Assembly: GCF_028553765.1 (NCBI RefSeq)
Contig: NZ_CP067134.1
Location: 1,407,001 to 1,471,000 of the forward strand
Length of the DNA: 64,000 bases
Direction: 5' to 3'
Origin: Paracoccus stylophorae
GTDB lineage: Bacteria > Pseudomonadota > Alphaproteobacteria > Rhodobacterales > Rhodobacteraceae
A program made the position numbers and the translations under genes. Positions 3,092 to 29,325 of this stretch are shown here, in pieces. The notes beneath the pieces are model-generated. The model saw only the letters and a program-made list of their open reading frames with translations, did not search any database and was not told the DNA's origin. Numbering within the stretch: the first letter of the stretch is position 1; each line of letters starts with the position of its first letter.

Positions 3092-3248
3092 GGCTTGCGG
3101 CATCAGTCGGCCACGCTGTAGCTTCTCCGAGCCGTTGTCAGGCGAAAGAGCTGCCAAACCAAAGAATTGCGCGTTGATCTGAGCCGAGTTCTTTGACAAG
3201 CCGTTTGCTGCGCGATGGCATGTCGAAACCGGGCGAAGTAGATTGCGC

Positions 3249-5627: not shown

Positions 5628-5644
5628 ATTGAAGGAGATCCAAC

Positions 5645-8367: not shown

Positions 8368-8379
8368 AAATCAGCCGGC

Positions 8380-9531: not shown

Positions 9532-10298
9532 CAGGCATCCTCGGGCTGCAGGGCGCGAATGATAGGTTCGGGAACGATCTGCCAGGGAAAACCATTCCAC
9601 TCTTCACCGTCGAGAAGGCGCCCGCCGGATTTCGGTCTTGCACCGCCCCACTGCTTGAAGAAGAACGCCACATCGTCACGGTCACAGATGTCCCGTATCT
9701 GGCGGGCCCAGCTTTCGTCCATGGGCCGAGCCCGGGGCCCGCTCTCCCCCCCGACGATGGCCCAAGCGACGCCCTGCAGATCGACATCCCCGACCGGTCC
9801 GAGCAGCGGCTCGAACGAGATGAAGCGCGCGTCGGAATTGATCTGCTTCAGGTGCTCGATCCGGCTCGCGTGCGCGGCGTCCTCGACAGAAACGCCGAGC
9901 CAGATGTGCCGAGGGATCGGCCCTCCATCATACCGCTTCCGAACGTAGTTGCGCATGAGCGAGCTGCGCTTGGTCAGCACCTGGTAGACGTGCCAGTCCG
10001 CCAGCTCCATGGCGTCGAACACCGCGTCGATGAATGTACGGTCGATGTCCTTGTGGAACAGGTCGCTCATCGAGTTCACGAAGATCATCCGCGGCTTTTT
10101 CCAGAGCACGGGCTGCTTCAGCCTCGACGGCCAGAGTGTCAGGTCAAAGCCCTGCTCGTAGGGGTGTCCAGGGATTCCACGCCAGCGCTCTGCGAACCGC
10201 TCGGCGTAACAGTTGTCACAACCGGGACCGACCTTGGTGCAGCCCGTCACCGGGTTCCACGTCGCGTCCGTCCATTCGATGTCTGACTTCTGGGCCAA
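9531..10298 (-). CDS. Three-Cys-motif protein, phage Gp37/Gp68 (DUF5131) family
   Basis: A 255-residue protein that opens with SDIEWTDATWNPVTGC and continues GPGCDNCYAE. The GCx6GCxxCYAE cysteine trio is the family signature and recalls the CxxxCxxC cluster motif of radical SAM proteins, so an iron-sulfur enzyme is plausible. Further conserved stretches are MIFVNSMSDLFH, WHVYQVLTKR, IWLGVSVE, FISFEPLLGP and WAIVGGESG, all typical and intact. The last looks like a glycine-rich binding loop. It is first in a two-gene minus-strand operon with tcmP, overlapping by one base. The reaction and substrate are unknown. Confidence 0.88.
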   Translation of the reverse strand: MAQKSDIEWTDATWNPVTGCTKVGPGCDNCYAERFAERWRGIPGHPYEQGFDLTLWPSRLKQPVLWKKPRMIFVNSMSDLFHKDIDRTFIDAVFDAMELADWHVYQVLTKRSSLMRNYVRKRYDGGPIPRHIWLGVSVEDAAHASRIEHLKQINSDARFISFEPLLGPVGDVDLQGVAWAIVGGESGPRARPMDESWARQIRDICDRDDVAFFFKQWGGARPKSGGRLLDGEEWNGFPWQIVPEPIIRALQPEDA

Positions 10299-14439: not shown

Positions 14440-15876
14440 TCAGACGATCTGCATGCTGTGCGAGATGTTCTTGACGATCATGTAGTTGTCCAGACCCTCG
14501 ATCCCGCCTTCGCGGCCATAGCCGCTGGACTTGACGCCGCCGAACGGGGTTTCGGGCAACGACGCCTCAAGCGTGTTGAACGAGACATTGCCCGCCTCGA
14601 TCTCGTCGGTCATGCGGTCGATATAGTCGGCGCGGTTGGTGAACCCATAGGCGGCCAGACCGAAGGGCGTCGAGTTCGCCTTGGCAATGGCTTCGTCCAG
14701 CGACGAGACGGGGTTGATCACGGCAAGCGGGCCGAACGGTTCTTCCTGCATCACCCGCGCATCGTCGGGGACGTTGACCAGCACTGTGGGTTCGAAGAAA
14801 TAGCCCTTGTTGCCGATCCGCCCGCCGCCGGTGCGGACCTCGGCGCCCTTGGCCCGCGCATCCTCGACCAGATCGGACAGCGCCGGCACGCGGCGTTCAT
14901 TGGCCAGCGGACCCATTTCGATCCCGGCTTCCATGCCGTTGCCGACCGTGGTCGCGGCGGCGCGTTTCACGAAATTCTCGGCATATTGGTCGAAGATGCT
15001 GTCATGCACGAAAAAGCGCGTGGGCGAGGTGCAGACCTGCCCGGCATTGCGATATTTGCGCACGGCGCTGGTGATCGCCGCGCGTTCCACATCGGTATCC
15101 TCGCAGACGATCACGGGCGCATGGCCGCCCAGCTCCATCAGCACGCGGGTCATGTTTTCCGATGCCAGCGTGGTCAGGTGGCGACCCACGGCGGTCGAGC
15201 CGGTGAAGGCCACAAGGCGCACCGGGTCCTGCCGGATCAGGTGATCCGAAATCGTCGCCGGCGTGCCGAAGACCAAATTCAGCACCCCCGGCGGCAGCCC
15301 GGCATCGTGAAAGGCGCGCACGATGTGCAGCGCGCCGGCAGGGGTTTCCTCGGCCGCCTTGAGGATGATCGAACAGCCGGTCGCAAGCGCGCCCGCGATC
15401 TTGCGGCAAGGCTGGCTCATCGGGAAATTCCAGGGCGACAGGCCCAGCACCACGCCGATCGGCTGGTGATGCACGACATAGCGGACGCCGGGCGCGGACG
15501 GGATCACGCGGCCATAGGTGCGCACCGCCTCGCCCGCGTCCCATTCGATGAACTCGCTGCCCCGGATCACCTCCAGCCGCGCCTGCGTCAGCGGCTTACC
15601 GTGTTCGGCGGTGATGGACCGCGCAATCTCTTCCTGCCGTTCGCGCAGAAGGGCGGCGGCCTTCAGCATGACATTCGCCCGGTCGCGCGGGGCGGTGTTG
15701 CGCCAGATGCGGAACCCGTCCTCGGCGGCGGCCAGCGCATCGTCGAGATCCGCGATCTCGGCGTGGGGCAGGCGTCCGATCTCTTCTTCCGTGGCGGGGT
15801 TCACGACCGGAAGATGGTTTTCCGTGTCACGCCATTCGCCCCCGATATAAAGCTTCAGATCCGGATAGGAGGTCAT
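14440..15876 (-). CDS. NAD(P)-dependent semialdehyde dehydrogenase (GabD-like)
   Basis: A 478-residue cytosolic aldehyde dehydrogenase of the succinate-semialdehyde type. The general base glutamate lies in VLMELGGHAPV, the catalytic cysteine in NAGQVCTSPTR, and the cofactor contacts in GLSPWNFP and FTGSTAVGR. Length fits the family. The start at 15876 (MTSYPDLKLYIGGEW) is preferred over one 14 codons upstream because the family alignment begins here. An LTTR-type site precedes the gene, matching sites before the dioxygenase and DapA-like genes, so it probably oxidises a semialdehyde of the ring-cleavage pathway, such as an aminomuconate semialdehyde. Succinate semialdehyde is the alternative substrate. 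Confidence 0.88.
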   Translation of the reverse strand: MTSYPDLKLYIGGEWRDTENHLPVVNPATEEEIGRLPHAEIADLDDALAAAEDGFRIWRNTAPRDRANVMLKAAALLRERQEEIARSITAEHGKPLTQARLEVIRGSEFIEWDAGEAVRTYGRVIPSAPGVRYVVHHQPIGVVLGLSPWNFPMSQPCRKIAGALATGCSIILKAAEETPAGALHIVRAFHDAGLPPGVLNLVFGTPATISDHLIRQDPVRLVAFTGSTAVGRHLTTLASENMTRVLMELGGHAPVIVCEDTDVERAAITSAVRKYRNAGQVCTSPTRFFVHDSIFDQYAENFVKRAAATTVGNGMEAGIEMGPLANERRVPALSDLVEDARAKGAEVRTGGGRIGNKGYFFEPTVLVNVPDDARVMQEEPFGPLAVINPVSSLDEAIAKANSTPFGLAAYGFTNRADYIDRMTDEIEAGNVSFNTLEASLPETPFGGVKSSGYGREGGIEGLDNYMIVKNISHSMQIV

Positions 15877-15958
15877 GTCAATCTCGCTTGCCCAAATGTT
15901 CTGTCGGACCGATGACACATGCTGGCGGGCTTGCGATCAAGTGAATTGGCGAAATACA

Positions 15959-15979
15959 GATATCGGCTTGCGTTATACC
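15959..15979 (-). promoter_or_regulatory. LysR-type operator before the aldehyde dehydrogenase gene
   Basis: On the minus strand this reads GGTAT-N11-ATATC, the interrupted dyad (T-N11-A) used by LysR-type regulators. Its centre is about 93 bases before the dehydrogenase start, a normal activator position. The dioxygenase gene has the same arms in the same orientation at 19810-19830. Confidence 0.65.
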
Positions 15980-15994
15980 GCGTGGGATATCGGG

Positions 15995-16942
15995 CTATTC
16001 GCGTTGCTGCGCGGTCGATCTGAGAAGGTCCAGAAACGCCATCCCCGCCGGCGACAGGCTGTCTTCGCCGCGATGGGACACCCCCACCGGACCCGCGCCA
16101 AAAGGCACCGTCCAGTTGATCTGCGCCAGCAGCCCGGCTGCGACATCCAGCGCCGCGACATCGGCGGGCATCAGGCCCAGAACCTCGTTTCGTCGCAGCA
16201 AGGCCCGATTGGTCAGGAACGAGACCGATTCGATTGTCAGCTTCGGCGCCGATTTCCCCTGCCGGATGAAGAACTGATCGACCTGACGCCGCAACGTTGT
16301 CTCGTTCGGGGGCAGGATCCAGCCGAATTCGTTGATCTCGTCGGGGGTGACCACCGGCTTGCCGGCCAGCGCGTGATCGGGGCCGGCCACCATCACCACG
16401 CGTTCATCGAAGAATTTTTCCTGCACGACGGTCGAGCGGTGGCGATAGACGGGCAGGCGGCCCACGACCATGTCGATCTCGCCCGAGATCAGCGCGGGCA
16501 TCAGGATCTCGTTGGTGCCCTCGACGATCTTGATGGCGACGTTCGGCCGCTCGGCCAGCAGACGCGCCACCGCCACCGGCAGCAGCGACGGCGAGGCCGC
16601 AAGCAAGGTGCCGATCACCACCCGCCCGCTGCTGCCTTCGTTCAGATCGTCCAGTTCCTGTGCCGCGTTCGACACCTGCGCAAAGATCAGCTTGCCGTGC
16701 CGGATCAGTGCCTCGCCCGAGACGGTCGGGATGACGCCGCGATTGGTGCGGCGCAGCAATTCGACCTCGAAATCCAGTTCCAGATCCTGGATCATCTTGG
16801 TGGCCGCGGGCTGCGATATGCCCAGCTCCTGCGCGGCGTTGCGGATGTTTCCGTGGCGGCCCACCGCCACCAGCAGCCGCAACTGCCGCAGTTTCAGCCG
16901 GGTCAGCGCGCGCTCGACGATGCGGGATTGCGGCGAGGCCAT
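15995..16942 (-). CDS. LysR-family transcriptional regulator, probable regulator of the cluster
   Basis: A 315-residue regulator. The N-terminal winged HTH (about 14-75) has LRQLRLLVAVGRHGNIRNAA and ISQPAATKMIQDLE; the C-terminal periplasmic-binding-like effector domain runs about 105-305. The start at 16942 is set by the N-terminus of the HTH. It is co-transcribed with the upstream aspartate-dehydrogenase-like gene, 11 bases apart. Three GGTAT-N11-ATACC-like dyads in the region suit this class of protein, so it is the likely activator of the catabolic genes. The inducer is probably a pathway substrate or intermediate, which is inferred. Confidence 0.88.
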   Translation of the reverse strand: MASPQSRIVERALTRLKLRQLRLLVAVGRHGNIRNAAQELGISQPAATKMIQDLELDFEVELLRRTNRGVIPTVSGEALIRHGKLIFAQVSNAAQELDDLNEGSSGRVVIGTLLAASPSLLPVAVARLLAERPNVAIKIVEGTNEILMPALISGEIDMVVGRLPVYRHRSTVVQEKFFDERVVMVAGPDHALAGKPVVTPDEINEFGWILPPNETTLRRQVDQFFIRQGKSAPKLTIESVSFLTNRALLRRNEVLGLMPADVAALDVAAGLLAQINWTVPFGAGPVGVSHRGEDSLSPAGMAFLDLLRSTAQQRE

Positions 16943-16953
16943 CGGCGCGCCCC

Positions 16954-17736
16954 TCAGATGACGATCGTGGCGCGTTGCCGTTCGATGGCGGCCACCACGC
17001 TCATCGCGGCCAGGGCCGAGCTGCGCGGACTGTCGGGCAGGGGGGTTCCCTCGATGCGGAACGAAAAGCGGCCAAAGGCACCCGAGGCGTGAATCTCGTG
17101 GATGTTCGCGCTGATGCCGGGGTCGGCGATCAGGCGCACCTGGGTGGCGTCGAACCCGGTGCCCGCCAGCGCCACCGCCGCCGCCACATTGGCGTTCTTG
17201 GGGTATTCGGTGGCGGCCCTGCGCGCGTCGCCCGCGAAATGTTCGGCGGCTTTGGTCAGACCATCCAGGTCCAGCGCCGTTTCGGCCGGCGATCCCTTCC
17301 ATCCCGCCGGCGGCTTGCGCCCGATATAGGTCACCTCATCCAGCCCGCCGATCCGCGCGGCCTGAAGACAGTCCAGCGCGCCGATGGCGCCGCTGGCCAG
17401 ATGCAGCCGCGCACCGCCCTGCTGCGCCGCGTCTTCCAGCCTGTCGTGCAGGTCGCGATCCGCCAGCGCCCCAAGCGAGACGCTGACAAGGTCGATCCCC
17501 GCCGCAAGGATCGCGGGCCCATGCGCGGCAAGCCCGGCGTGCCCGGCGCAATCCACCATCAGATCGAGTCCCTCCGGCAGATCCCGCGCCTCCGTCACCT
17601 GCATCGCATCCGCGTCCTGCCCGTCCAGCGCGCGCCGTGTGCGCATCAGGAACACGGCCGGCCGAATGCCCCGCGATCCAAGCTGCGCCGACACATATCC
17701 GGCGATGGCACCGTGTCCGATCAGGCCAATCTTCAT
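16954..17736 (-). CDS. nadX: Aspartate dehydrogenase-like oxidoreductase (NadX family)
   Basis: A 260-residue protein. The Rossmann NAD(P)-binding start MKIGLIGHGAIAGYV and the DUF108 C-terminal half (LASGAIGALDCLQAA, YPKNANVAAAVALAG, DPGISANIHEI) are typical of L-aspartate dehydrogenase, which interconverts L-aspartate and iminoaspartate/oxaloacetate plus ammonia. NAD synthesis by this enzyme would need nadA and nadC, which are not in the window. Its place in an operon with the LysR gene, divergent from the DapA-like gene across an LTTR site, points to a catabolic job such as processing an amino or imino acid from ring cleavage. Family assignment is good; substrate is uncertain. Confidence 0.8.
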   Translation of the reverse strand: MKIGLIGHGAIAGYVSAQLGSRGIRPAVFLMRTRRALDGQDADAMQVTEARDLPEGLDLMVDCAGHAGLAAHGPAILAAGIDLVSVSLGALADRDLHDRLEDAAQQGGARLHLASGAIGALDCLQAARIGGLDEVTYIGRKPPAGWKGSPAETALDLDGLTKAAEHFAGDARRAATEYPKNANVAAAVALAGTGFDATQVRLIADPGISANIHEIHASGAFGRFSFRIEGTPLPDSPRSSALAAMSVVAAIERQRATIVI

Positions 17737-17804
17737 CCTCGCCTCCCTTTTCCCACCATCCTTTCATCACCGCGAAAACCGCAAAAGGCAAATCTTCCGC
17801 GCTC

Positions 17805-17827
17805 CGGTATGCATTTTTTCGATACCG
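17805..17827. promoter_or_regulatory. LysR-type operator in the nadX / dapA-like divergent promoter
   Basis: CGGTAT (17805-17810), 11 bases, then ATACCG (17822-17827) form a perfect six-base dyad with the T-N11-A core. It lies about 80 bases before the nadX start and 124 before the DapA-like start, so one bound regulator could act on both directions and on its own expression. Confidence 0.75.
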
Positions 17828-17939
17828 ACTTCGTCGCAGAACATTTGGCTTCGACGCCAAGTCCTGACTGAATGCCCGCAAACCCGACCTGCCGTCCCGA
17901 CAGGTCCGACCGATGCAATCGAACAGGAAGGCGGCTGCC

Positions 17940-18893
17940 ATGAACTATGCCAAGCACGAAGCCAAGGCCCATGCGCGCGAGACCATGCGCGGAATCTGGG
18001 CCGCCGCGCTGAACCCCTTCGATGCGGATCTGCAACTGGATGAGGCCGGGCTGCGCAGCAATATCCGCCACTGGATCGACGATCTGGGGATTCAGGGGCT
18101 GTTCATCGCCGGCAAGCAGGGCGAATTCTGGTCGATGTCGCTTGACGAACGCAAGCGCAACATGACCCTTGCGGTCGAGGAATGTGCCGGCAAGGCGGGC
18201 ACGATCATGTCGATCTCGGACCAGAACGTGGACACGGTGCTGGAACTGGGCCGTCATGCCCAGGATTGCGGGGCCGATTATGTCGTGGTCCATGCCCCGA
18301 TGCTGAGCTTCTGCACCGAGCGCGACGAGGTGCTGTACAACTATTACAAGCATCTCTGCGACCGGCTGGATATCGGCATCGCCATGTGGAGCCATCCCGA
18401 CAGCGGCTATCTGATGGAACCCGAAACCTGCGCCCGCATTGCCGAGTTGCCCAACATCATGGCGATCAAATATTCCGTCCCCAGAGAGATGTATGCCCGC
18501 CTGACCCGGATGGTCGGAGACAAGATCCTGGTCTCGACCTCGTCCGAGGTCGAATGGCTGGACAATATCGAGGAGCTGGGCTGGCAGCTGTATCTGTGCT
18601 CGTCCCCGCCCTATCAGTTGCAGACCAAGAACGACCGGCGGATGCACGAATATACCGAACTGGCCTTTGCCGGCAAATTCGACGAGGCGCGGCGCGTCCG
18701 CGACAGCCTGAACCCCGTGCGCGAGGCGATCCACCGGACGAAACCCGGCGGCAAGCCCACCGCGCATGGCAAATACTGGCAGGAATTGCTGGGTCAGGTC
18801 GGCGGACGGGTGCGCCATCCGATGCTGGAACTGACCGAGGCGGAAAAGGCCGCGACCAGCGCCGCGTTCGAGGATTGCGGCCTGACGCTGTAA
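17940..18893 (+). CDS. DapA/NAL-superfamily lyase with altered active-site motifs
   Basis: A 317-residue TIM-barrel protein of the dihydrodipicolinate synthase/N-acetylneuraminate lyase superfamily. The start at 17940 has AGGAAGG upstream. The Schiff-base lysine is kept in IMAIKYSVP. The usual G-T-T-G-E loop is instead GKQGE, and the tyrosine of the Y-Y-N-(K/R)-P loop is replaced (VVVHAPMLSF). It is therefore unlikely to be a lysine-pathway DapA. It may be a decarboxylase, hydratase or aldolase acting on a ring-cleavage product, as its regulatory site and neighbours suggest. The EamA gene follows 25 bases downstream. Confidence 0.75.
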   Translation: MNYAKHEAKAHARETMRGIWAAALNPFDADLQLDEAGLRSNIRHWIDDLGIQGLFIAGKQGEFWSMSLDERKRNMTLAVEECAGKAGTIMSISDQNVDTVLELGRHAQDCGADYVVVHAPMLSFCTERDEVLYNYYKHLCDRLDIGIAMWSHPDSGYLMEPETCARIAELPNIMAIKYSVPREMYARLTRMVGDKILVSTSSEVEWLDNIEELGWQLYLCSSPPYQLQTKNDRRMHEYTELAFAGKFDEARRVRDSLNPVREAIHRTKPGGKPTAHGKYWQELLGQVGGRVRHPMLELTEAEKAATSAAFEDCGLTL

Positions 18894-18918
18894 CTCCGCC
18901 GCGGCGGGGGACGAAAGG

Positions 18919-19803
18919 GTGACCGGCGAGATTTTCGCCCTGCTGGCGGCAATGGCCTATGGCATCGCCGGCGTCACCATTGTCAAGGGCCAGGCGACGG
19001 CGCGCGGCGATAACGGCCTGTTCCTGTCGGTCATGGCCACCGCCCTGCTGACATGGACGCTGTGGCTGGGCTGGGGCGAGGTGCCGCTGCACCGCCTGTC
19101 CGAGCCGGGCCATCTGCGCGCGCTGGCGATCTTTGCCTTGGCCGGTCTGTTCTCGACCGTGCTGGGCCGGCTGACCATGTATCGCGCGACCGAACGCATC
19201 GGCGCGGTGCGCGCCAGCCTGCTGCGGCGGCTGACGCCGGTTTTCGCGCTGTTCTGCGCCTTTCTGCTGCTGGCCGAGATCCCCGATGGCCCGACGCTGG
19301 CCGGCGGCGCGATCATCATGGTCGGCGTGCTGTGGTATTGGCGGTCGCCGGCGGGCAAGTCCGCGCGGCTGTTCGATGCGGGGATGGTGCTGGGCACCGC
19401 CTCGGCCTTCTTCTATGCCTTTGCCTATACGCTGCGCAGCCTTGGCCTTGACACGCTGCCCGATGCCGCCCTGGGCACACTGACCGGCGCGATTGTCGGT
19501 GGCGTGTGGTTTCTTGCGGCCGCGTTCGTGCGGCGCGGTGCGGTGGCCGGTATGCGGTATCTGCTGCGCGATTGCGGCGTCTGGCACGCAGCCACCGCCG
19601 TGGCGCTGAGCGTGGGGCAGACGCTGCAGTTCTTTGCGCTGAAATTCACCTCGGTCACCGTCGTCGCCGTTCTGGGCACGCTGGAGGTCTTTTTCTCGGC
19701 GGTCCTTGTCCTTGCCTTCTTTCCGGGCGAGACGATCCCGCGCCGGCGTCTGGTCCTTGCGGGCACCGCCGCCGCCATCGGCACCGCGATCCTGTTCGCC
19801 TGA
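18919..19803 (+). CDS. EamA/DMT-family transporter
   Basis: A 294-residue inner-membrane protein with ten predicted membrane segments in two five-helix EamA repeats (about 3-140 and 155-293). The GTG start at 18919 is the first codon in frame that keeps the whole first helix; it follows GGGGGACGAAAG. DMT proteins usually export metabolites or amino acids. It is probably co-transcribed with the DapA-like gene and may relieve build-up of a pathway intermediate. Substrate unknown. Confidence 0.82.
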   Translation: MTGEIFALLAAMAYGIAGVTIVKGQATARGDNGLFLSVMATALLTWTLWLGWGEVPLHRLSEPGHLRALAIFALAGLFSTVLGRLTMYRATERIGAVRASLLRRLTPVFALFCAFLLLAEIPDGPTLAGGAIIMVGVLWYWRSPAGKSARLFDAGMVLGTASAFFYAFAYTLRSLGLDTLPDAALGTLTGAIVGGVWFLAAAFVRRGAVAGMRYLLRDCGVWHAATAVALSVGQTLQFFALKFTSVTVVAVLGTLEVFFSAVLVLAFFPGETIPRRRLVLAGTAAAIGTAILFA

Positions 19804-19809
19804 CGTTTG

Positions 19810-19830
19810 GGTATCAGCAATCGTGATATC
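19810..19830 (+). promoter_or_regulatory. LysR-type operator before the 3-hydroxyanthranilate dioxygenase gene
   Basis: GGTAT-N11-ATATC, with the same arms and orientation relative to its gene as the site at 15959-15979. The centre is about 115 bases before the dioxygenase start and begins six bases after the EamA stop, so the dioxygenase-TRAP operon can be induced separately from dapA-like/eamA. Confidence 0.68.
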
Positions 19831-19934
19831 CATTTTCGGCGAATCCCCTTATTCTTATCGCCCCGCCTGACCTAGGCTGGGCGTTGCGGGATATCGGAAC
19901 GCGCGCCCGCCCAACTGATCCAAGGGAGGCTTCG

Positions 19935-21537
<1,603 letters not shown>

Positions 21538-21597
21538 CACCGCGACCGACGGCGGCAATCGCGCCGCCGTTTCGGCCGGGCCTGCAGGGAGAACCCG

Positions 21598-22137
21598 ATG
21601 CTGGGGAAACTGTCCGCCGGTTGGGCGCGGATCGAGCTTGGCGCGGCGGCCATTCTGGCCGTCGCGATCACCATCCTGATCCTGCTGAACGTCGTCACGC
21701 GCAGCCTTGGCGCGGCGCTGTTCTGGACCGATGAGCTGGCCATCTATGCGATGGTCTGGATGACCTTTCTGGGCGCCTCCGCCGCGGTCCATCACGGCAG
21801 CGCCGTGGCCGTCACCATCGTGACCGACGCCCTGTCGCCGGGCCTGCGCAAGATCGCCGTCAGGCTGGTCGATCTGATCGTGCTGGGCTTTGCGCTGATG
21901 ATGATCTGGTTCTGCTGGCAGTGGTTCGCGCCCGACATGCTGCTGCGCAGCGGCTTTGACATCGGCGCGTTCCAAAGCGAGACGTTCAAGTTCATCTATT
22001 CGGAACCGACCACGACACTGGGCATCCGCAAGGTCTGGGTCTGGATCGTGGTGTGGCTGTTCTCGGCCGGTGCGACGCTGCATGCGGTGGCAAACCTGTC
22101 GCGGCCGGCCGACCGCGTCAACGTGGAAGCAAGCTGA
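21598..22137 (+). CDS. dctQ: TRAP transporter small permease DctQ
   Basis: A 179-residue protein with four membrane helices (about 15-35, 50-68, 88-110, 140-162), the usual DctQ layout, with FWTDELAIYAMVWMTFLGAS as the conserved helix-2 region. It forms the membrane complex with DctM. Its stop overlaps the DctM start by one base (TGATG), so the two are translationally coupled. Confidence 0.88.
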   Translation: MLGKLSAGWARIELGAAAILAVAITILILLNVVTRSLGAALFWTDELAIYAMVWMTFLGASAAVHHGSAVAVTIVTDALSPGLRKIAVRLVDLIVLGFALMMIWFCWQWFAPDMLLRSGFDIGAFQSETFKFIYSEPTTTLGIRKVWVWIVVWLFSAGATLHAVANLSRPADRVNVEAS

Positions 22138-23396
22138 TGACCCCTGTCCTTTTCCTGGTGCTGCTGCTGCTGTCGGTCCCGGTCGCGCTGGTTCTTGCGC
22201 TGACCGCCATCGGATATATCTGGGCCAGCGGAAACACGGTCCTGTATGACAGCTTCGCGCAGAAGATGTTCGCCGGGATCGAGAATTACGGCCTGCTGGC
22301 GATTCCGCTGTTCATGCTGGCGGGTGAGTTGATGAACGAGGGCGGGATGACGCGCCGCCTGATCAACGCGGCGCGGGTCTTTGTCGGCGGATTTCGCGGC
22401 GGGCTGGCCTATATCAACCTGCTGGCCAACATGTTCATGGCGGCCATCATCGGCTCGGCCACCGCCCAGATCGCCGTCATGGCGCAGGCGATGGTCCCGC
22501 AGATGGAACAGGAAGGCTATGATCGCGGGTTCGCGGCCGCGACCACGGCGGCGGGCGGGCTGCTGGCCCCGATCATCCCGCCGTCGATGATGTTCGTCAT
22601 CTTCGGCGTCCTGGCCCAGATCCCCATCGGCGACATGTTCCTGGCTGGCATCCTGCCCGGCCTGATCCTGGCATTCGCAGTGGTGTGCGTCATCGCCACG
22701 ATCGGTTTCGTGCAGGGGTTTCCGAAGGGCGAATGGTTCACCGCGTCCGAGGCGGCCTCGGCGCTGCTGTATTGCCTTCCCGCCACGCTGATCCCCATTG
22801 CCATCGTGGGCGGCATCCTGCTGGGCATCGCGACGCCCACCGAATCCGCCGCCGTCGCATCGCTGATCGCGTTTCTGGTCGGCTGGCTGGTCTATCGCGA
22901 GTTGAAACCGTCCGCGCTGTTCGGCGTGTTCCGGCGCACGGCGGTGAACGCGTCGATGATCATCTTCATGATCGCTGCGGCCAATGTCTTTGGCTGGGTC
23001 ATCATCTACGAGGCGCTGCCGCAGAAGCTGGCCGCCTATATCACCTCGGTCACCAGCGATCCGTTCGTGTTCCTGCTGATCATCAACGTGATGCTGCTGT
23101 TCGTGGGCATGCTGATCGACGGCATTGCCGCGCTGATCCTGCTGACCCCGATCCTGCTGCCCATCGCCATCGCGCATTACGGCATCAGCCCGTTCCATTT
23201 CGGCGTCGTCGTCTGCCTGAACCTGGCTCTGGGCCTGCTGACCCCGCCGGTCGGCGTCGGCCTGTATATCGCGGCGGCGATGAGCAAGACGAACCCCGGA
23301 CAGGTCCTGAAATCGCTGTGGCCGTTCCTTGTGGCCGTCGCGGCGGTGCTGCTGCTGCTGAGCCGGTTCCCGGTGTTGTCGACGGCGTTGATCTGA
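22137..23396 (+). CDS. dctM: TRAP transporter large permease DctM
   Basis: A 419-residue permease with about 12 membrane segments that carries the substrate using the Na+ gradient. Conserved family parts are IPLFMLAGELMNEGGM, GSATAQIAVMAQAMVP, AAGGLLAPIIPPSMMF and LLTPPVGVGLYIAAA. The ATG at 22137 starts inside the DctQ stop. It is the last gene of the dioxygenase-TRAP operon; the end faces the opposing tctA 81 bases away, with GC-rich hairpins in the gap but no clear T-tract terminator. Confidence 0.92.
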   Translation: MTPVLFLVLLLLSVPVALVLALTAIGYIWASGNTVLYDSFAQKMFAGIENYGLLAIPLFMLAGELMNEGGMTRRLINAARVFVGGFRGGLAYINLLANMFMAAIIGSATAQIAVMAQAMVPQMEQEGYDRGFAAATTAAGGLLAPIIPPSMMFVIFGVLAQIPIGDMFLAGILPGLILAFAVVCVIATIGFVQGFPKGEWFTASEAASALLYCLPATLIPIAIVGGILLGIATPTESAAVASLIAFLVGWLVYRELKPSALFGVFRRTAVNASMIIFMIAAANVFGWVIIYEALPQKLAAYITSVTSDPFVFLLIINVMLLFVGMLIDGIAALILLTPILLPIAIAHYGISPFHFGVVVCLNLALGLLTPPVGVGLYIAAAMSKTNPGQVLKSLWPFLVAVAAVLLLLSRFPVLSTALI

Positions 23397-23477
23397 CGGC
23401 GGCGGGGCCGGGCGGTCCGGACGGCGCGTCGTCAGCGGGCCTTCGGGCCACCGGCCGGCGCGCCTGCCGTCACGCGA

Positions 23478-24959
23478 TCACTCCGCGCTTTCCGCGTGCT
23501 TTTTCCACGCCGACCGCAGGCTCATCACCAGGATGCCTATGATGGCCAGCACCAGCACCGCCGAGATCGGGCGGTCGAAGAAGTCCATCGGCGACTGGAT
23601 GCGCGCCATGGCGCTGCGGAACTTGGCCTCCATGATGCCGCCAAGCACCATCCCCAGAATGATCGGCACGATGGGCACGTTCAGACGCTTCAGGATCGCG
23701 CCGAACAGGCCGAACGCCGTCGCGATCAGGCAGTCGGTGATCGAGTTGCGCAGCGAATAGACGCCCACGAAGGAAAACATCAGCACCAGAACGCCGATGA
23801 TCCGGTTCGGGATGCTGATCACGCGGACCAGCAGCCTGGTGGACATCAGCAGGAACGCCAGCGCGAAGATGTTCAGCACCAGCAGCGCGATATACAGCGC
23901 AATGACGAAATCCATCCGTTCCGCCAGAAGCTGCGGGCCGGGGACGACGTTGTGGACATAGAACACGGCCAGCATCATCGCCGTCAGCGCCTCGCCCGGC
24001 ACGCCAAGCGCCAGCAGAGGGATCAGCGCCGCAGCCGGCACCGAATTGTTCGCCGATTCCGACGCGATCAGCCCTTCGGGCGATCCGTCGCCGAACTGTT
24101 CGGGCGTTTTCGAGGTTCTCTGGGCATAGGAATAGGCCAGGAACTGCGACACGAACTCGCCCACGCCGGGGATGATGCCGACGCCGACGCCGAAGGCCGA
24201 CGACACGCCCGCAATGCGCTTGTGCTGCCAGACCTCGCGCATGGCGCTGAAGACGCTGCCGCGGACCTTCTGCGGTTCCACATGATCGTCCGACCCCGAC
24301 AGCAAAAGGAACGCCTGGCTCAGCGCGAACAGCCCCAGCACCACGACCACCAGATTGACCCCGGAACTGAGCCAGGACTGGCCGAACGTGAACCGCTGCG
24401 TATAGTTGATCGGCTCCATCCCGACGGTGTTCAGCAGGATGCCAAAACAGGCCATCATCCCGGCGGCAAAGACCTGACCGCGATGCGACAGGATCACCAG
24501 GATGACCCCGAACAGCGCAGCAAGGAAAATCTCGCGCGAGCCGAACATCGGCGCGACCTTTGTCAGCACCGGCATCAGCACGACAAGGCTGACGATGGAC
24601 ACCATCGCCCCGAAAAAGGACGCCGAATAGGCCAGGCCAAGCGCCCGTTGCGCCTGCCCCCGGCGCGTCATCGGATAACCGTCATAGGTCGTCAGCGCAT
24701 TGACGGCCGTGCCGGGCGTGTTCATCAGGATCGCCGGAATCGCGCCGCCATACATCGACGAGCCGTAGATCCCCAGCAAAAGCGAAAGCCCGACCAGCGG
24801 ATCGAAGATGAACGTGGTCGGCAGCAGGATCGCGATGGCGACCGCGGGTCCCACGCCGGGGATCGCGCCGATGACGACGCCGCCGACGGACCCCACCAGC
24901 AACGCGACCAGCACGGCCGGTTGCAACAAAAGCCCCAGGGCTGGCAGCACTTGGTCCAC
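23478..24959 (-). CDS. tctA: Tripartite tricarboxylate transporter large permease TctA
   Basis: A 493-residue permease with about 12 membrane segments. The two TctA glycine-rich hallmarks are present: VVIGAIPGVGPAVAIAILLP near the start and VGIIPGVGEFVSQFLAYS in the middle. The start is GTG at 24959 with AAGGGGA upstream. It forms the uptake system with TctB and the binding protein TctC encoded upstream, and is last in the kynureninase operon. TTT systems import carboxylates and aromatic acids; here the substrate is probably tied to kynureninase or the sulfatase-family enzyme. Confidence 0.93.
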   Translation of the reverse strand: MDQVLPALGLLLQPAVLVALLVGSVGGVVIGAIPGVGPAVAIAILLPTTFIFDPLVGLSLLLGIYGSSMYGGAIPAILMNTPGTAVNALTTYDGYPMTRRGQAQRALGLAYSASFFGAMVSIVSLVVLMPVLTKVAPMFGSREIFLAALFGVILVILSHRGQVFAAGMMACFGILLNTVGMEPINYTQRFTFGQSWLSSGVNLVVVVLGLFALSQAFLLLSGSDDHVEPQKVRGSVFSAMREVWQHKRIAGVSSAFGVGVGIIPGVGEFVSQFLAYSYAQRTSKTPEQFGDGSPEGLIASESANNSVPAAALIPLLALGVPGEALTAMMLAVFYVHNVVPGPQLLAERMDFVIALYIALLVLNIFALAFLLMSTRLLVRVISIPNRIIGVLVLMFSFVGVYSLRNSITDCLIATAFGLFGAILKRLNVPIVPIILGMVLGGIMEAKFRSAMARIQSPMDFFDRPISAVLVLAIIGILVMSLRSAWKKHAESAE

Positions 24960-24969
24960 GGCTGTCCCC

Positions 24970-25512
24970 TTACAGATAAACGATGAAGAAATTGCGCCAA
25001 GCGGGCGGCAAAAGCTCGTAGATCGCGCCGCCCGGCACGTTCACCCGCAGACCGACCTTGAACAGCAAGACGATCAGGATGCCCGACAGCGCCGCAAGCA
25101 ACAGCATGCGCGGGCTGCGGTAACCGCTGCGCCAGAACAGCCCGACCGCGATCAGGATGCTTGACGGAAGATAGCCCAGTTGCGGCACCAGCAGCACGAA
25201 GGCCAGAAACCACGCCGCATATTCCACGAATCCCAGCCAGACCCGCAATTCTGCCAGCCGCCCCGGAATCCGCGGCGACAGGACCGAGCCAAGCAGGTTG
25301 AAGGCGGCGAAAACGACCATGCCGAACACGCCGACCGCCGGCCACAGCGTCGGCTGCGCAGACCACACCGTCCCTTCGGCCGGCGTGGTCTGAAAGGGAA
25401 AGCTGACAAGCAGGAAAAGCGAGAAGAGAAGCATCGCCGTGGCGAAGACGAAATCGCCCCGCCGCCTTTCGCGGCGGAAAAACTTCAGGAACCCGGTGGC
25501 GTTGCTGGGCAT
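24970..25512 (-). CDS. tctB: Tripartite tricarboxylate transporter small permease TctB
   Basis: A 180-residue membrane protein with four predicted helices (about 20-40, 55-75, 92-125, 135-158), the normal TctB layout. The start at 25512 is preceded by GGAGGAG. It lies between tctC and tctA with short gaps (27 and 10 bases). TctB sequences vary widely, so the call leans on helix pattern and position. Confidence 0.88.
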   Translation of the reverse strand: MPSNATGFLKFFRRERRRGDFVFATAMLLFSLFLLVSFPFQTTPAEGTVWSAQPTLWPAVGVFGMVVFAAFNLLGSVLSPRIPGRLAELRVWLGFVEYAAWFLAFVLLVPQLGYLPSSILIAVGLFWRSGYRSPRMLLLAALSGILIVLLFKVGLRVNVPGGAIYELLPPAWRNFFIVYL

Positions 25513-25539
25513 GACGTCTTCTCCTCCCCCAAGGCCGCG

Positions 25540-26481
25540 TTACTGCAGCAGCTTCTCGATCGTGGCCAGCGCCGCCTTGTCCGACGCGATCTGGGCATCG
25601 GCCTCTTCCTTCGTCTTCCAGCGGATCAGCGCGCCGGTCTGTTCGGCAATGTCCTGCATCCGCTGCGATTCGACGGCTTTCTTGCCCACCTCGGTGATCT
25701 TGTCGCGGATGTCCTGCGGCGTGTCCTTGTGCACGAACAGACCGTTCCACAGCGACAGGTTCAGGTCCGGCACGATCTCCGCGACCGCCGGGGCGTCGGG
25801 GGCGACGGGCAGGCGGGTATCGCCGAACGCCGCCAGCACATTCACGCTGTCGATGCAGGGCAGGATCGTCTGGACGGTCACCGTCATCACATCGACATCA
25901 CCCGAGGCAAGCGTGTTGCAATCCAGCGCATCGAACGCCGCGTTCGAGGCGAATTCGATGCCCGTCGTCGCGGCCAGCGCGAATGTCGCCCGCGTCGGCA
26001 GAAGTTTCGATCCGAAATGCCCGAACACGACCGGATTTTCCTGCGAATATTCCGCCAACCCCTCGACCGAATCGAAGGGCAGGTCGCCGCGCGAGGCAAT
26101 CACGAACGGATAGGTCAGATAGATGCCAAGCGGCTCGAACGGGTTGGGGTTCAGCTGCGGAATCCCGACCTGGTCGCCAAAGGCCGGGATCGCGTTGACC
26201 AGCGCGCCGATCGTATAGCCATCGGCGGGTTGCTGGGCGAAATAGACCGCGCCGGGGAACGGCCCGCCGCCGCCGCCGGGCTTGTTCAGCACCGCCGAGG
26301 CCACGCCGTAGGTCGCCTGAAACTCATCGGCGATGATCCGGGTGGTGATGTCGGCCAGATCGCCCGGCGGCCAGGGCACGACGAACGAGACGGGTTTTTC
26401 GGGATATTCCGCCTGTGCCGACAGCGGCGCAAGCAGCGCGATGGCGGCGGTGGCCACCGTTCCAAGGATATGCAGTTTCAT
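25540..26481 (-). CDS. tctC: Tripartite tricarboxylate transporter binding protein TctC
   Basis: A 313-residue periplasmic protein with a Sec signal peptide (about 1-24, ending LLAPLSAQA). The mature start YPEKPVSFVVPWPPGDLADITTR is the family signature, followed by VLNKPGGGGGPFPGAVYFAQQPADGYT. The usual A-G-G-x-x-D at the ligand pocket reads WPPGDLAD, a change that may reflect an unusual ligand. Two cysteines (about 191 and 212) could form a disulfide. A good GGGAGGAACC ribosome site precedes the ATG. Ligand unknown. Confidence 0.88.
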   Translation of the reverse strand: MKLHILGTVATAAIALLAPLSAQAEYPEKPVSFVVPWPPGDLADITTRIIADEFQATYGVASAVLNKPGGGGGPFPGAVYFAQQPADGYTIGALVNAIPAFGDQVGIPQLNPNPFEPLGIYLTYPFVIASRGDLPFDSVEGLAEYSQENPVVFGHFGSKLLPTRATFALAATTGIEFASNAAFDALDCNTLASGDVDVMTVTVQTILPCIDSVNVLAAFGDTRLPVAPDAPAVAEIVPDLNLSLWNGLFVHKDTPQDIRDKITEVGKKAVESQRMQDIAEQTGALIRWKTKEEADAQIASDKAALATIEKLLQ

Positions 26482-26518
26482 GGTTCCTCCCAGTTTTCTG
26501 CGAATGGTCGTTACTCCG

Positions 26519-28132
26519 TCAGGACCTGCCTTTCGGGGATTTCATGGCGCGTTCGACATCCTGTTCGTCCCAGAAACCGATCCAGATGCCTTCATCCTTC
26601 TCGATCTCGGTCAGCTGATCGACGCGCGCATCCGTCATCGTGGTGCGGGTGCGCAACTGCTCCATCCATCGGAACAGCCGCTTTTCCAGCCGGTCGCGCA
26701 AACCGCGCGACGCCGGGTCGTTTCCGATATCGACGAATTCCTGCGGATCGGCCTGAAGATCGAACAGCATCGGCCGGTGGCCCGTGACGTGGACCAGCTT
26801 GTAGCGTCCATCGAAGACCATCACCGCCCGGCAGTCGGAAATATCGCGGCCAAGAAGGGTCCGGGCCTCGCGAAAGGCGAAATCGTATTCGGAAATCGCC
26901 GCGTCCCGCGGCCATTCCGTCGCTCCATGCACAAGCGGCAAAAGCGAACGCCCCTCAAGGATGTGGTCGGGCACCTCGCCGCCCGCCGCCTCGATGAAGG
27001 TCGGCACAAGATCTATCGCTTCGACCAGATCGGCGTTGACCCGGCCGCGGGTCGCGTCGGCGCGGGCGTCCGGATCGACGACGATCAGCGGAACGCGGAC
27101 CGACTGTTCGTGAAACAGTTCCTTTTCGCCAAGCCAATGATCGCCAAGATAGTCGCCGTGGTCCGAGGTGAAGACGATCAGCGTCTCATCAAGGCGGCCC
27201 GTCGCCTCAAGATGCCGCATCAACTCGCCGATCTGGTCGTCGATCTGGGTGATCAGCCCCATATAGACCGGGATGACCGTCCGGCGCACATCGTCGCGCG
27301 ACATGCATTTCGACGTGCGGTGCGCCTGATACGCCGCCAGCAGCGGATGGGGGTCCACACGCTCGGCCCGGTCGCGTATCGCGTCAGGCACATCCTCGGC
27401 CGAATACATGTCGTGATAGGGCGCCGGCGCGATATAGGGCCAGTGCGGCTTGATATAGCTGAGATGCAGACACCAAGGCGTGTCGCCGGCCTTGTCGATG
27501 AATTCCATCGCGCGGCGGGTGGTATAGTTCGTCTCGGAATCCTCCAGCCGGACGCGCGCGGGATGTCTGGCGTTCTTCATCAGCCAGCCCGACAGAAGGG
27601 TGCCGTCCGCGTCCTCGGCGGCGGCCGCCCAGTCCTGCCACGGGTTTTCACCCTCATACCCTTCGTCGGCCAGATAGCGGTTGTAATGCGACGGCATCTT
27701 GCCGCCGGTCGGATGCACACCGTCCAGCCGGTCCCAAACCTCGAACCCGCACTCGGACAGCAGCGCGCCGATGCCTTCCGTCTTCGACAGCCCCAGCCGC
27801 TGCATCCCCTCAAGATCGGCGGTCATGTGGGTCTTGCCGCACAGCGCCGTGCGCAGGCCCAGGGGGCGCAGATATTCGCCCATCGTCCGCTCACCCACCT
27901 TCAGGGGCACCATATTCCAGGTCGAGCCGTGGCTGCGGACATAGCGCCCGGTGTAAAAGCTCATCCGGCTGGGGCCGCAGATCGGCGATTGCACATAGGC
28001 CCGGTCGAAGCGCAGCCCGCGCGCGGCCAGCGCGTCGATATTGGGCGTGCGGATCGACGGATGGCCGGTGCAGCCCAGATAATCCCATCTGAGCTGATCG
28101 CACATGATGAACAGGATGTTCCGCGCAGTCAT
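26519..28132 (-). CDS. Sulfatase-family hydrolase (arylsulfatase / phosphonate monoester hydrolase type)
   Basis: A 537-residue alkaline-phosphatase-superfamily enzyme. The C-x-P-S-R motif (CGPSR, cysteine about residue 52) is the site converted to formylglycine, the nucleophile for sulfate or phosphate/phosphonate ester cleavage. Metal ligands are visible in IMCDQLRWD near the start and FTSDHGDYLGDH (about 305). No signal peptide is seen, so it acts in the cytoplasm on an imported ester. Its start overlaps the kynureninase stop (ATGA), a tight link. A sulfated or phosphorylated aromatic substrate for the pathway is a fair hypothesis. Confidence 0.85.
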   Translation of the reverse strand: MTARNILFIMCDQLRWDYLGCTGHPSIRTPNIDALAARGLRFDRAYVQSPICGPSRMSFYTGRYVRSHGSTWNMVPLKVGERTMGEYLRPLGLRTALCGKTHMTADLEGMQRLGLSKTEGIGALLSECGFEVWDRLDGVHPTGGKMPSHYNRYLADEGYEGENPWQDWAAAAEDADGTLLSGWLMKNARHPARVRLEDSETNYTTRRAMEFIDKAGDTPWCLHLSYIKPHWPYIAPAPYHDMYSAEDVPDAIRDRAERVDPHPLLAAYQAHRTSKCMSRDDVRRTVIPVYMGLITQIDDQIGELMRHLEATGRLDETLIVFTSDHGDYLGDHWLGEKELFHEQSVRVPLIVVDPDARADATRGRVNADLVEAIDLVPTFIEAAGGEVPDHILEGRSLLPLVHGATEWPRDAAISEYDFAFREARTLLGRDISDCRAVMVFDGRYKLVHVTGHRPMLFDLQADPQEFVDIGNDPASRGLRDRLEKRLFRWMEQLRTRTTMTDARVDQLTEIEKDEGIWIGFWDEQDVERAMKSPKGRS

Positions 28133-29325
28133 GTCACCAGCGAGCGTTTCTGGAACCGTTCCTCTTTCCAGCGTTCTTCCTTCAGGATGCGCTCCAGCGT
28201 GTCCACGGCACCCATGATGTCATCCTCGCCGATGAACAGGGGCGTGATGCCGAAGCGCATGACATCGGGGGCGCGGAAATCGCCGATGACGTTTTCGGCG
28301 ATCAGGGCCTGCATGCAGGCATAGCCCTGGCCGAAGGCGAAGGACACGTGGCTGCCGCGCGCCTGCGGGTCGCGCGGGCTGACAAGACGCAGATCGGGGC
28401 AGCGGGATTCGACCTCGCGGATGAACAGTTCCGACAGTTCGACCGAACGGCGATGCAGCGCGTCCATGTCCACCTGGTCCCAGATATCAAGCGCCGCCGA
28501 CAGCAGCGCAAAGGCGGCAATCGAGGGCGTGCCGATCCGCATCCGTTCGATCCGGCCCGGCATCGGACGGTAATTGACATCGAAGGCGAACGGCGCCTCG
28601 TGACCGTACCAGCCGGACAGGAACGGCTCGACCGTCTCAAGCAGCCGTGGCGCGACATGGATGAAGCCGGGCGCGCCCGGACCGCCATTGAGGTATTTAT
28701 AGGTGCAGCCGACGGCGAAATCCGTGTCCAGCCCGCCGACATCGACCGGCACCGCGCCGGCCGAATGGGCCAGGTCCCAGACCACCACCGCGCCCACCGA
28801 ATGGGCCTTGTCGATGATCGCCTTCATGTCGTGGCGACGGCCGGTGCGGTAATCCACCTCGGTGATCATCACCACCGCGACCTCTTCGGTGATGTTGTCC
28901 AGCACCGCTTCGGGATCGGGGGTGCGCAGCTGGTATCCCGCATCTTTCAGCCGGATCAGCCCCTCGACCATGTAAAGATCGGTCGGGAAATTGCCGTTGT
29001 CGGACAGGATGACCTTGCGGTCGGGCACCAGCGCCATGCCGGCAGCCACCGCCTGAAAGACCTTGATCGACAGCGTGTCGCCCACCACCGTCGTGCCCGG
29101 CTGGGCGCCGATCAGACGCCCGATCCGATCGCCAAGCGTGTTGGTCTGCATGAACCAGTTCTTGGTGTTCCAGCCCTTGATCAGCTCGGTCCGCCATTCG
29201 TCGTTCAGAAAGCGCGTCATCGCCTCGACCGACGCGGACGGCATGGGACCAAGGGAATTGCCGTTCAGATAGATCATGCCCTCGGGCAGGTCGAACTGGC
29301 GTCGTGTTTGTGAGAAATCGGACAA
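28129..29325 (-). CDS. kynU: Kynureninase
   Basis: A 398-residue PLP enzyme that hydrolyses kynurenine or 3-hydroxykynurenine to (3-hydroxy)anthranilate and alanine. The start is TTG at 29325, six bases after GAGGAG; longer in-frame starts add about 97 residues without homology. Family features: MIYLNGNSLGPMP at the N-terminus, VWDLAHSAGAVPVDV with the PLP-binding aspartate, and CTYKYLNGGPGAPGF with the Schiff-base lysine. No tryptophan dioxygenase or formylkynurenine hydrolase gene is nearby, so kynurenines probably come from outside the cell. It heads the operon kynU - sulfatase - tctC - tctB - tctA. Confidence 0.93.
   Translation of the reverse strand: MSDFSQTRRQFDLPEGMIYLNGNSLGPMPSASVEAMTRFLNDEWRTELIKGWNTKNWFMQTNTLGDRIGRLIGAQPGTTVVGDTLSIKVFQAVAAGMALVPDRKVILSDNGNFPTDLYMVEGLIRLKDAGYQLRTPDPEAVLDNITEEVAVVMITEVDYRTGRRHDMKAIIDKAHSVGAVVVWDLAHSAGAVPVDVGGLDTDFAVGCTYKYLNGGPGAPGFIHVAPRLLETVEPFLSGWYGHEAPFAFDVNYRPMPGRIERMRIGTPSIAAFALLSAALDIWDQVDMDALHRRSVELSELFIREVESRCPDLRLVSPRDPQARGSHVSFAFGQGYACMQALIAENVIGDFRAPDVMRFGITPLFIGEDDIMGAVDTLERILKEERWKEERFQKRSLVT

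Follow-up and report, generated by a model that had tools for sequence, protein, structure and literature searches.

A 64,000-nt stretch of the Paracoccus stylophorae genome (assembly GCF_028553765.1, contig NZ_CP067134.1, positions 1,407,001-1,471,000 of the forward strand; hereafter the window) carries a cluster of genes for the breakdown of kynurenine and 3-hydroxyanthranilate, among them a gene for a DapA-superfamily protein that is the main subject of this analysis. Open reading frame (ORF) calling and Pfam and NCBIfam profile scans of the window proteins found all the genes that an earlier note on this DNA had named between positions 14440 and 29325 (Table 1). Genes for an aldehyde dehydrogenase (ALDH), a LysR-family regulator and a NadX-type aspartate dehydrogenase are followed by a divergent set on the other strand, which encodes the DapA-like protein, an EamA transporter, 3-hydroxyanthranilate 3,4-dioxygenase (HAO) and a TRAP transporter. 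Genes for the transporter TctABC, a sulfatase-family hydrolase and kynureninase then lie on the same strand as the ALDH gene. The starts of the DapA-like gene and the HAO gene were set by the length of homologues and by the upstream sequence. The end of the kynureninase gene and the beginning of the sulfatase gene share 4 bases, and TctCBA come next.

Table 1. Genes and LysR-type operators of the cluster, in window positions.
Feature	Position	Strand	Basis and remarks
Aldehyde dehydrogenase (ALDH)	14440-15918	-	Pfam Aldedh 517 bits; PDB 5x5t 511 bits
Operator GGTAT-N11-ATATC before ALDH gene	15959-15979	-	Pattern scan
LysR-family regulator, PcaQ-like	15995-16921	-	TIGR02424 214.9 bits vs cut-off 303.8
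NadX-type aspartate dehydrogenase	16954-17736	-	NF009828 347.9 bits vs cut-off 177
Palindromic operator GGTAT-N11-ATACC between nadX and DapA-like gene	17806-17826	both	Pattern scan
DapA-superfamily protein, 317 aa	17940-18893	+	ATG start at 17940
EamA/DMT-family transporter	18919-19803	+	PF00892 73.8 bits; in 23/98 loci
Operator GGTAT-N11-ATATC before HAO gene	19810-19830	+	Pattern scan
3-Hydroxyanthranilate 3,4-dioxygenase (HAO), 187 aa	19935-20498	+	ATG start at 19935; NF009763, TIGR03037; PDB 1yfu 200.5 bits
TRAP solute-binding protein DctP	20530-21537	+	NF037995 165.8 bits vs cut-off 50; in 43/98 loci
TRAP small permease DctQ	21598-22137	+	PF04290 82.8 bits
TRAP large permease DctM	22137-23396	+	PF06808 352.8 bits; start inferred inside ORF 22053-23396; in 43/98 loci
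Tripartite tricarboxylate transporter large permease TctA	23478-24959	-	PF01970 432.3 bits
Small permease TctB	24970-25512	-	PF07331 38.4 bits
Solute receptor TctC	25540-26481	-	PF03401 55.8 bits
Sulfatase-family hydrolase (accessory)	26519-28132	-	PF00884 165.1 bits; CxPxR motif CGPSRMSFYTG
Kynureninase	28129-29325	-	TIGR01814 273.8 bits vs cut-off 246.4; PDB 1qz9 384.9 bits

Two samples were used for comparison. One consisted of 289 genomes of the class, in which HAO was counted at E<1e-35. The other consisted of 98 loci with the DapA-like gene, made up of 80 related stretches from a scan of genome contigs (the best of at least 563), 17 loci from the sampled genomes and the window itself. 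The 80 stretches are the closest relatives, and the locus set is therefore weighted towards the kin of the window. By record title they come from Rhodobacterales, other Alphaproteobacteria and some Gammaproteobacteria, and one has a Flavobacteriaceae label.

Kynureninase and HAO both score above curated equivalog cut-offs, in agreement with the earlier view of them as two firm consecutive steps. HAO reaches 252.7 bits against 220 and 224.4 bits against 145.95 with two NCBIfam equivalogs. Its His, Glu and His, which we take to be the iron ligands, and its Arg, Arg and Glu, which are presumably substrate residues in the numbering that we assume, are kept in 77 or 78 of the 78 loci with matches of at least 140 residues. 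The kynureninase of the window is the sole match of its genome at E<=1e-60, and the genome also encodes a tryptophan 2,3-dioxygenase (kynA), away from the window. NadX passes one curated cut-off (Table 1) and stays below the stricter equivalog TIGR03855 (167 against 206.55 bits). Its Asn 182 and His 212 (numbering of the aligned rows), which we assume to be catalytic, are kept in 6 of 6 rows. The closest solved relatives of the ALDH are alpha-ketoglutaric and succinic semialdehyde dehydrogenases. PcaQ is the nearest named family of the LysR regulator, which does not reach the cut-off of the PcaQ equivalog.

The DapA-like protein belongs to class I of the DapA superfamily by its fold and its Schiff-base Lys. 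It scores below the cut-off of every NCBIfam model that it matches, including that of DapA proper (TIGR00674, 75.2 against 206.15 bits). The altered motifs described earlier are real: the Schiff-base Lys is kept in all 98 loci, and the position of the DapA catalytic Tyr, placed by alignment, is Met, Val or Ile in 96 loci and Pro or Leu in the other two. We take this Tyr, which follows the Pro of the strand-4 motif in DapA, to be catalytic there. The family is sharply bounded, with members of at least 59% identity in 18 of the 289 genomes and the next listed match at 33% (E<=1e-40). Among 8000 candidates scored, 5942 match the DapA-like query at E<=1e-10, a number that may include remoter members of the superfamily. 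In the rows seen, the protein is annotated as 'dihydrodipicolinate synthase family protein' or '4-hydroxy-tetrahydrodipicolinate synthase'. An AlphaFold model (pLDDT 88.5) matches DapA and sialic-acid lyases alike, so that the fold is no guide to the reaction. No solved hydratase-aldolase appeared among the rows shown in the comparisons, an absence that excludes nothing.

The genes of the cluster are tied together by their operators. The pattern GGTAT-N11-ATAYC occurs at three places and in four strand matches in the 64-kb window (Table 1) and nowhere else in it; shuffled sequences gave a mean of 0.03, and 0 of 100 shuffles reached 4. The pattern was framed on the sites at 17806 and 19810, and the independent part of the evidence is the site at 15959, the absence elsewhere and the recurrence in relatives. 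The LysR-type sites that had been seen to link the DapA-like gene and nadX to the dioxygenase gene therefore stand above the shuffle, and they recur in relatives. The strict palindrome was found in 35 of 75 loci (13.0 expected), and the core TAT-N11-ATA was therefore used for the comparison of loci. Among ALDH-type loci, the DapA-like gene has this core upstream in 52 of 59 cases, HAO in 44 of 54, ALDH in 50 of 59 and NadX in 49 of 54; it occurs in 57 of 1180 random 280-bp stretches. In most loci a single spacer serves both the DapA-like gene and nadX, and their two counts are not independent. Loci of a second type, which carry the large subunit of a molybdenum (Mo) oxidase, have the core before the Mo gene in 19 of 31 cases, before nadX in 14 of 19, before HAO in 9 of 20 and before the DapA-like gene, which lies directly behind the Mo gene, in 1 of 31. 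Before the LysR gene itself it was found in 3 of 50 ALDH-type and 5 of 18 Mo-type loci. The LysR protein presumably binds the GGTAT-N11-ATAYC operators, and as a PcaQ-like regulator it would control the unit.

Other genomes carry the same gene set much more often than chance would allow. HAO was found in 17 of 18 genomes with the DapA-like gene against 9 of 271 others (Fisher 4.6e-20, kinship not corrected), and the DapA-like gene thus does not occur generally without the dioxygenase. Within the flanks fetched for the 98 loci we counted HAO in 79, NadX in 76, LysR in 72, ALDH in 59 and the large subunit of the Mo oxidase in 31. For 12 of the 17 genomes with both HAO and the DapA-like gene, one fetched stretch contains the two. 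In a tree of HAO proteins, the linked HAOs group into a single clade with good support (99/93). Only one other HAO, of a genome that lacks the DapA-like gene, falls within this clade, which is separate from the HAOs of clusters with the decarboxylase of the classical branch described below. Therefore HAO has largely diversified together with the unit, and a repeated recruitment of unrelated HAOs was not borne out. A neighbour family, F11, was discarded, since it looks like an open frame antisense to HAO and not a gene.

The set is also found on plasmids. A Phaeobacter inhibens plasmid has genes for HAO, ALDH, kynureninase (kynU), TctCBA, TRAP, LysR, aspartate dehydrogenase, the DapA-like protein and a DMT transporter within about 15 kb, which is the set of the window in another order and with no sulfatase listed. 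In a Pukyongiella plasmid the order from ALDH to TRAP is the same as in the window. A Sinorhizobium mexicanum plasmid carries a compact run of DapA-like, HAO, aspartate dehydrogenase and ALDH genes with an ABC transporter, and a Chelatococcus plasmid carries Mo oxidase, DapA-like, HAO, ABC transporter and aspartate dehydrogenase genes. Altogether 47 plasmid records have the DapA-like gene, which in the rows listed is a 'dihydrodipicolinate synthase family protein' or has no annotation there.

HAO would open the ring of 3-hydroxyanthranilate to 2-amino-3-carboxymuconate semialdehyde (ACMS). In the classical 2-aminomuconate branch of the kynurenine and 2-nitrobenzoate pathways, as encoded by the nba cluster, HAO is followed by ACMS decarboxylase (ACMSD), aminomuconate semialdehyde dehydrogenase (AMSDH), aminomuconate deaminase and a lower meta pathway. 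For the onb pathway these steps are described in part of PMC5817917. Passages of PMC10143591 present one enzymatic exit for ACMS in the kynurenine pathway, the decarboxylase, with leakage to quinolinate, and parts of PMC7842363 and PMC5817917 likewise describe the decarboxylase exit and the spontaneous closure to quinolinate. Our ACMSD query was the enzyme of a classical cluster, L158, which has genes for kynureninase, an AMSDH-type ALDH, a RidA-type protein, HAO and ACMSD. The query matches solved bacterial ACMSD with 437 bits and a second solved group, which we take to be the human-type enzyme, with 268 bits. It finds nothing at E<=1e-20 in the P. stylophorae genome, where all 5 first-look candidates were scored; for some other genomes scoring was limited to 7 such candidates. 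A hidden standard ACMSD was also considered and rejected. The single Amidohydro_2 protein of this genome over the Pfam cut-off has 568 aa and is probably exported, and a second match is below the cut-off. The lack of an ACMS decarboxylase, first noted for the cluster, thus extends to the whole genome at the sensitivity used, and no standard ACMSD was found elsewhere in it that could complete the known decarboxylase pathway. In the class, matches of at least 244 bits were found in 5 of 289 genomes (G001, G122, G175, G184 and G226); no HAO was seen in G226, a genome of 70% completeness. Such matches occur in 0 of 18 DapA-like genomes; 6 of the 18 have paralogues, the best of which score no higher than 134 bits. 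ACMSD is found in 0 of the 98 DapA-like loci. Of the 26 HAO genomes, the DapA-like gene is found in 17 and ACMSD in 4; no genome combines the two, and 5 lack both (kinship not corrected).

This distribution could also be explained if the DapA-like protein is itself an ACMS decarboxylase, non-homologous to ACMSD, which works on the beta-imino acid through a Schiff base. 2-Aminomuconate semialdehyde, 2-aminomuconate and oxalocrotonate or another lower route would then follow. Members of the DapA superfamily that decarboxylate exist, ACMS has a carboxyl group in the beta position relative to its C2 imine, and the unit, like the classical route, includes an ALDH. The DapA-like gene does hold the slot of ACMSD, which is absent from all 17 genomes with HAO and the DapA-like gene and present in 4 of the 9 other HAO genomes. 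Furthermore, one Mo-type locus, L032, encodes a RidA protein 59% identical to the presumed 2-aminomuconate deaminase of the classical cluster. However, RidA, which was searched in the loci only, matches the protein of the classical cluster in 3 of 98 loci and strongly in 1, and an ALDH of AMSDH type (at least 60% identity to the classical subtype) was found in 0 of 98. The lower-pathway aldolase DmpG was not found in the P. stylophorae genome and is present in 2 of 18 DapA-like genomes, which speaks against the classical lower pathway; yet 2 of the 4 genomes with HAO and ACMSD also lack it. A decarboxylase would, in addition, leave NadX without a substrate. We regard this role of the DapA-like protein as doubtful, and as less likely than that of a hydratase-aldolase.

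The oxidation step is indicated by a swap of enzymes. ALDH (59 loci) and the Mo subunit (31) occur together in 0 of the 98 loci, and 8 loci have neither. At E<=1e-10 the Mo subunit has no match in any ALDH locus, whereas other ALDHs, of 30 and 34% identity, are present in two Mo loci. When the type of oxidase is mapped on a tree of the DapA-like protein, 5 changes are needed, and well-supported branches force at least 3 of them. Since ALDH and the Mo oxidase are never together, one oxidation appears to be done by two unrelated enzymes. The operator before the Mo gene likewise places it in the same regulon that ALDH occupies elsewhere. The strongest argument for an aldehyde oxidation as part of the route is that these two unrelated oxidases replace each other.

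Two other roles of the oxidase were considered. The superfamily of the Mo subunit also holds ring hydroxylases. The Mo oxidase might therefore hydroxylate quinolinate, formed from ACMS, to 6-hydroxyquinolinate, which is formally the lactam of 2-amino-3-carboxymuconate, with the DapA-like protein acting later on a pyridine-derived product. This is very unlikely, because the Mo gene is replaced by ALDH in 59 of 98 loci and never stands alongside it. ALDH cannot hydroxylate a pyridine ring, and the common step is thus most simply an aldehyde oxidation. The same gene set would also fit a route in which cleavage comes first: the DapA-like protein would act on ACMS before oxidation, giving malondialdehyde and iminosuccinate or oxaloacetate, and ALDH or the Mo oxidase would then oxidise the C3 dialdehyde or malonic semialdehyde. 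The resemblance of the ALDH to succinic and alpha-ketoglutaric semialdehyde dehydrogenases, which act on short omega-semialdehydes, is consistent with this order, as is the best NCBIfam match of the Mo subunit, a glyceraldehyde dehydrogenase subunit (below cut-off). However, free malondialdehyde is reactive and unoxidised ACMS would be open to closure to quinolinate, and we consider this order unlikely. In genome G065 (locus L164, 7380-10245) an unlinked HAO has as its neighbour the large subunit of a Mo oxidase with 45% identity to that of the unit, which again hints that this oxidase works in a step next to that of HAO.

HAO and NadX can both feed quinolinate synthesis, and the records give NadX a term for NAD biosynthesis. 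HAO and NadX might thus serve NAD biosynthesis through quinolinate, with their neighbours being incidental. In the P. stylophorae genome this is contradicted, since neither NadA nor quinolinate phosphoribosyltransferase (QRPTase) was found, whereas 12 of 14 control genomes were positive for each. The transporters and the oxidase in the unit, and the operators that tie HAO, ALDH, NadX and the DapA-like gene together, also argue against it. A role in NAD biosynthesis was therefore rejected for this genome, and as a general explanation it is hardly credible. With neither NadA nor QRPTase detected, the way from quinolinate to NAD by known enzymes is closed, HAO and NadX look catabolic, and the organism probably depends on salvage of NAD precursors.

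HAO, the ALDH or Mo oxidase, NadX and the DapA-like protein very probably form one unit that does the job of the ACMSD branch. The conservation of the gene set and the operators supports the variant breakdown route of the earlier note, with a DapA-like and a NadX-like protein in place of the decarboxylase. For its chemistry, including whether oxidation or cleavage comes first, which bond is broken, what the products are and what NadX does, we infer the following. The C6 aldehyde of ACMS would be oxidised by ALDH, or by the Mo oxidase in other lineages, to 2-amino-3-carboxymuconate, which would also block closure to quinolinate. In the DapA-like class I enzyme, Lys177 would attach to C2, water would add to C4, and the C3-C4 bond would be split. 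The predicted products are malonic semialdehyde (C4-C6) and a C4 fragment (C1, C2, C3 and the C3 carboxyl), as iminosuccinate or, when hydrolysed, as oxaloacetate. ACMS is a 3-substituted iminosuccinate, and iminosuccinate is the substrate of NadX. L-Aspartate would be formed by NadX, which would reduce iminosuccinate or aminate oxaloacetate with the NADH that the ALDH provides. Malonic semialdehyde might be converted to acetyl-CoA by a methylmalonate/malonate semialdehyde dehydrogenase (MMSDH), which is encoded elsewhere in the genome (664.9 bits). The route would probably end in aspartate or oxaloacetate and a three-carbon piece. Of the specific reactions considered, we lean towards this hydratase-aldolase and aspartate chemistry. 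With moderate confidence, we propose that HAO, ALDH or the Mo oxidase, a DapA-superfamily hydratase-aldolase and NadX give ACMS a third fate besides decarboxylation and spontaneous closure to quinolinate. In this fate no CO2 would be lost at the ACMS step and the ring nitrogen would be kept as aspartate, and it would be common among marine Alphaproteobacteria, on plasmids of rhizobia and in some Gammaproteobacteria.

Several observations weigh against this proposal. HAO is missing from the flank in 19 of 98 loci, about 7 of them short or cut contigs, and NadX is missing in 22. In 5 of the 17 genomes with both genes (G007, G065, G099, G185 and G279) HAO lies elsewhere in the genome, and these five HAOs fall outside the linked clade. 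NadX occurs in 8 of 9 HAO genomes without the DapA-like gene. This weakens the idea of NadX as a specific partner of the DapA-like gene at the genome level; the linkage and the operator are specific. MMSDH is a common enzyme and is not linked to the cluster. Since the Tyr of DapA is not kept, the textbook mechanism of DapA and hydratase-aldolases cannot simply be transferred. If Lys takes C2 by transimination, ammonia would leave early and iminosuccinate would not be released. DmpG is present in two DapA-like genomes, and its presence in just 2 of the 4 genomes with HAO and ACMSD makes it an imperfect marker. The RidA gene of L032 may show a mixed route.

The proposed route can be compared with known systems. 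It shares with the classical branch the cleavage by HAO, an aldehyde oxidation and an upstream source of 3-hydroxyanthranilate such as kynureninase. It differs in that it has the DapA-like protein and NadX in place of ACMSD, the AMSDH-type ALDH, DmpG (as far as the P. stylophorae genome is concerned) and, in nearly all loci, a strong RidA match. Hydratase-aldolases such as trans-o-hydroxybenzylidenepyruvate hydratase-aldolase add water and then cleave by a retro-aldol reaction. The DapA-like protein has in common with them the superfamily fold, the Schiff-base Lys and, as proposed, hydration and retro-aldol cleavage in aromatic catabolism. Unlike enzymes of the NahE/PahE type, it has no catalytic Tyr, stays below the NCBIfam cut-offs and would act on another substrate, aminocarboxymuconate (for PahE, see the portion of PMC10783047 on this hydratase-aldolase). 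In the beta-hydroxyaspartate cycle, iminosuccinate is likewise reduced to aspartate in catabolism, by an iminosuccinate reductase described in part of PMC8307300. There the iminosuccinate comes from glyoxylate, whereas here it would come from ring cleavage and be reduced by a NadX-family enzyme. NadX shares domain architecture, a curated cut-off and the Asn and His with L-aspartate dehydrogenase. It differs from the usual NadX route in that its own genome has no detected NadA, so that the usual feed into NAD is closed. No description of the proposed route was found by title or abstract opening in the open-licence literature, a coverage outside which most subscription papers lie. We regard it as a new branch of an established pathway, with its key enzyme from a new family within a superfamily already known.

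The upstream genes are more variable. Kynureninase is present and genuine in the window, as first described, but it is a frequent neighbour of the DapA-like gene (13 of 98 loci) and not a core member of the unit; TAT-N11-ATA precedes it in 2 of 9 ALDH-type and 0 of 4 Mo-type loci. A sulfatase homologue was found in 5 of 98 loci, 4 of which also have kynureninase. Sulfatase and Tct genes beside kynureninase could possibly serve the import and desulfation of a sulfated 3-hydroxykynurenine-type compound. No sulfatase lay beside kynureninase in 29 other loci of the class, within short flanks (30 loci were listed, of 53 genomes with a match). In locus L035 the DapA-like gene and HAO are directly preceded by genes for a ring-hydroxylating oxygenase, judged by eye to be of Rieske type, and for a solute-binding protein, which hints at another aromatic source of 3-hydroxyanthranilate. 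In Sinorhizobium mexicanum (NZ_CP041239.1, 106277-107541; L220), genes for an NAD(P)H-dependent oxidoreductase and a flavin reductase stand beside the compact run. This pair might possibly provide a flavin-dependent entry reaction to 3-hydroxyanthranilate.

Other genes of the window were also recorded. Next to kynureninase, 29736-31481 (+) encodes a 581-aa protein with an LVIVD repeat as its only Pfam match and no NCBIfam match. The region 1218-9600 contains genes for a large serine recombinase (matches below cut-off), type I restriction-modification proteins, with an R subunit of EcoAI/FtnUII type (1012 bits), and an adjoining TcmP three-Cys-motif partner protein; it is possibly a defence island. 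At 38825-42991 (+) a 1388-aa protein combines PA14, four bacterial Ig/cadherin-like repeats, G8 and a CEMIP-like beta-helix, a domain mix that recalls animal CEMIP-type proteins.

If the proposed route is true, the large and sharply bounded DapA-like family would have a function, and the presence of NadX in a catabolic cluster of a genome without detected NadA would be explained. ACMS would then be removed by an enzyme route before quinolinate forms. A second enzymatic exit from ACMS would change the annotation of tryptophan, kynurenine and nitro- and aminobenzoate breakdown in very many genomes.

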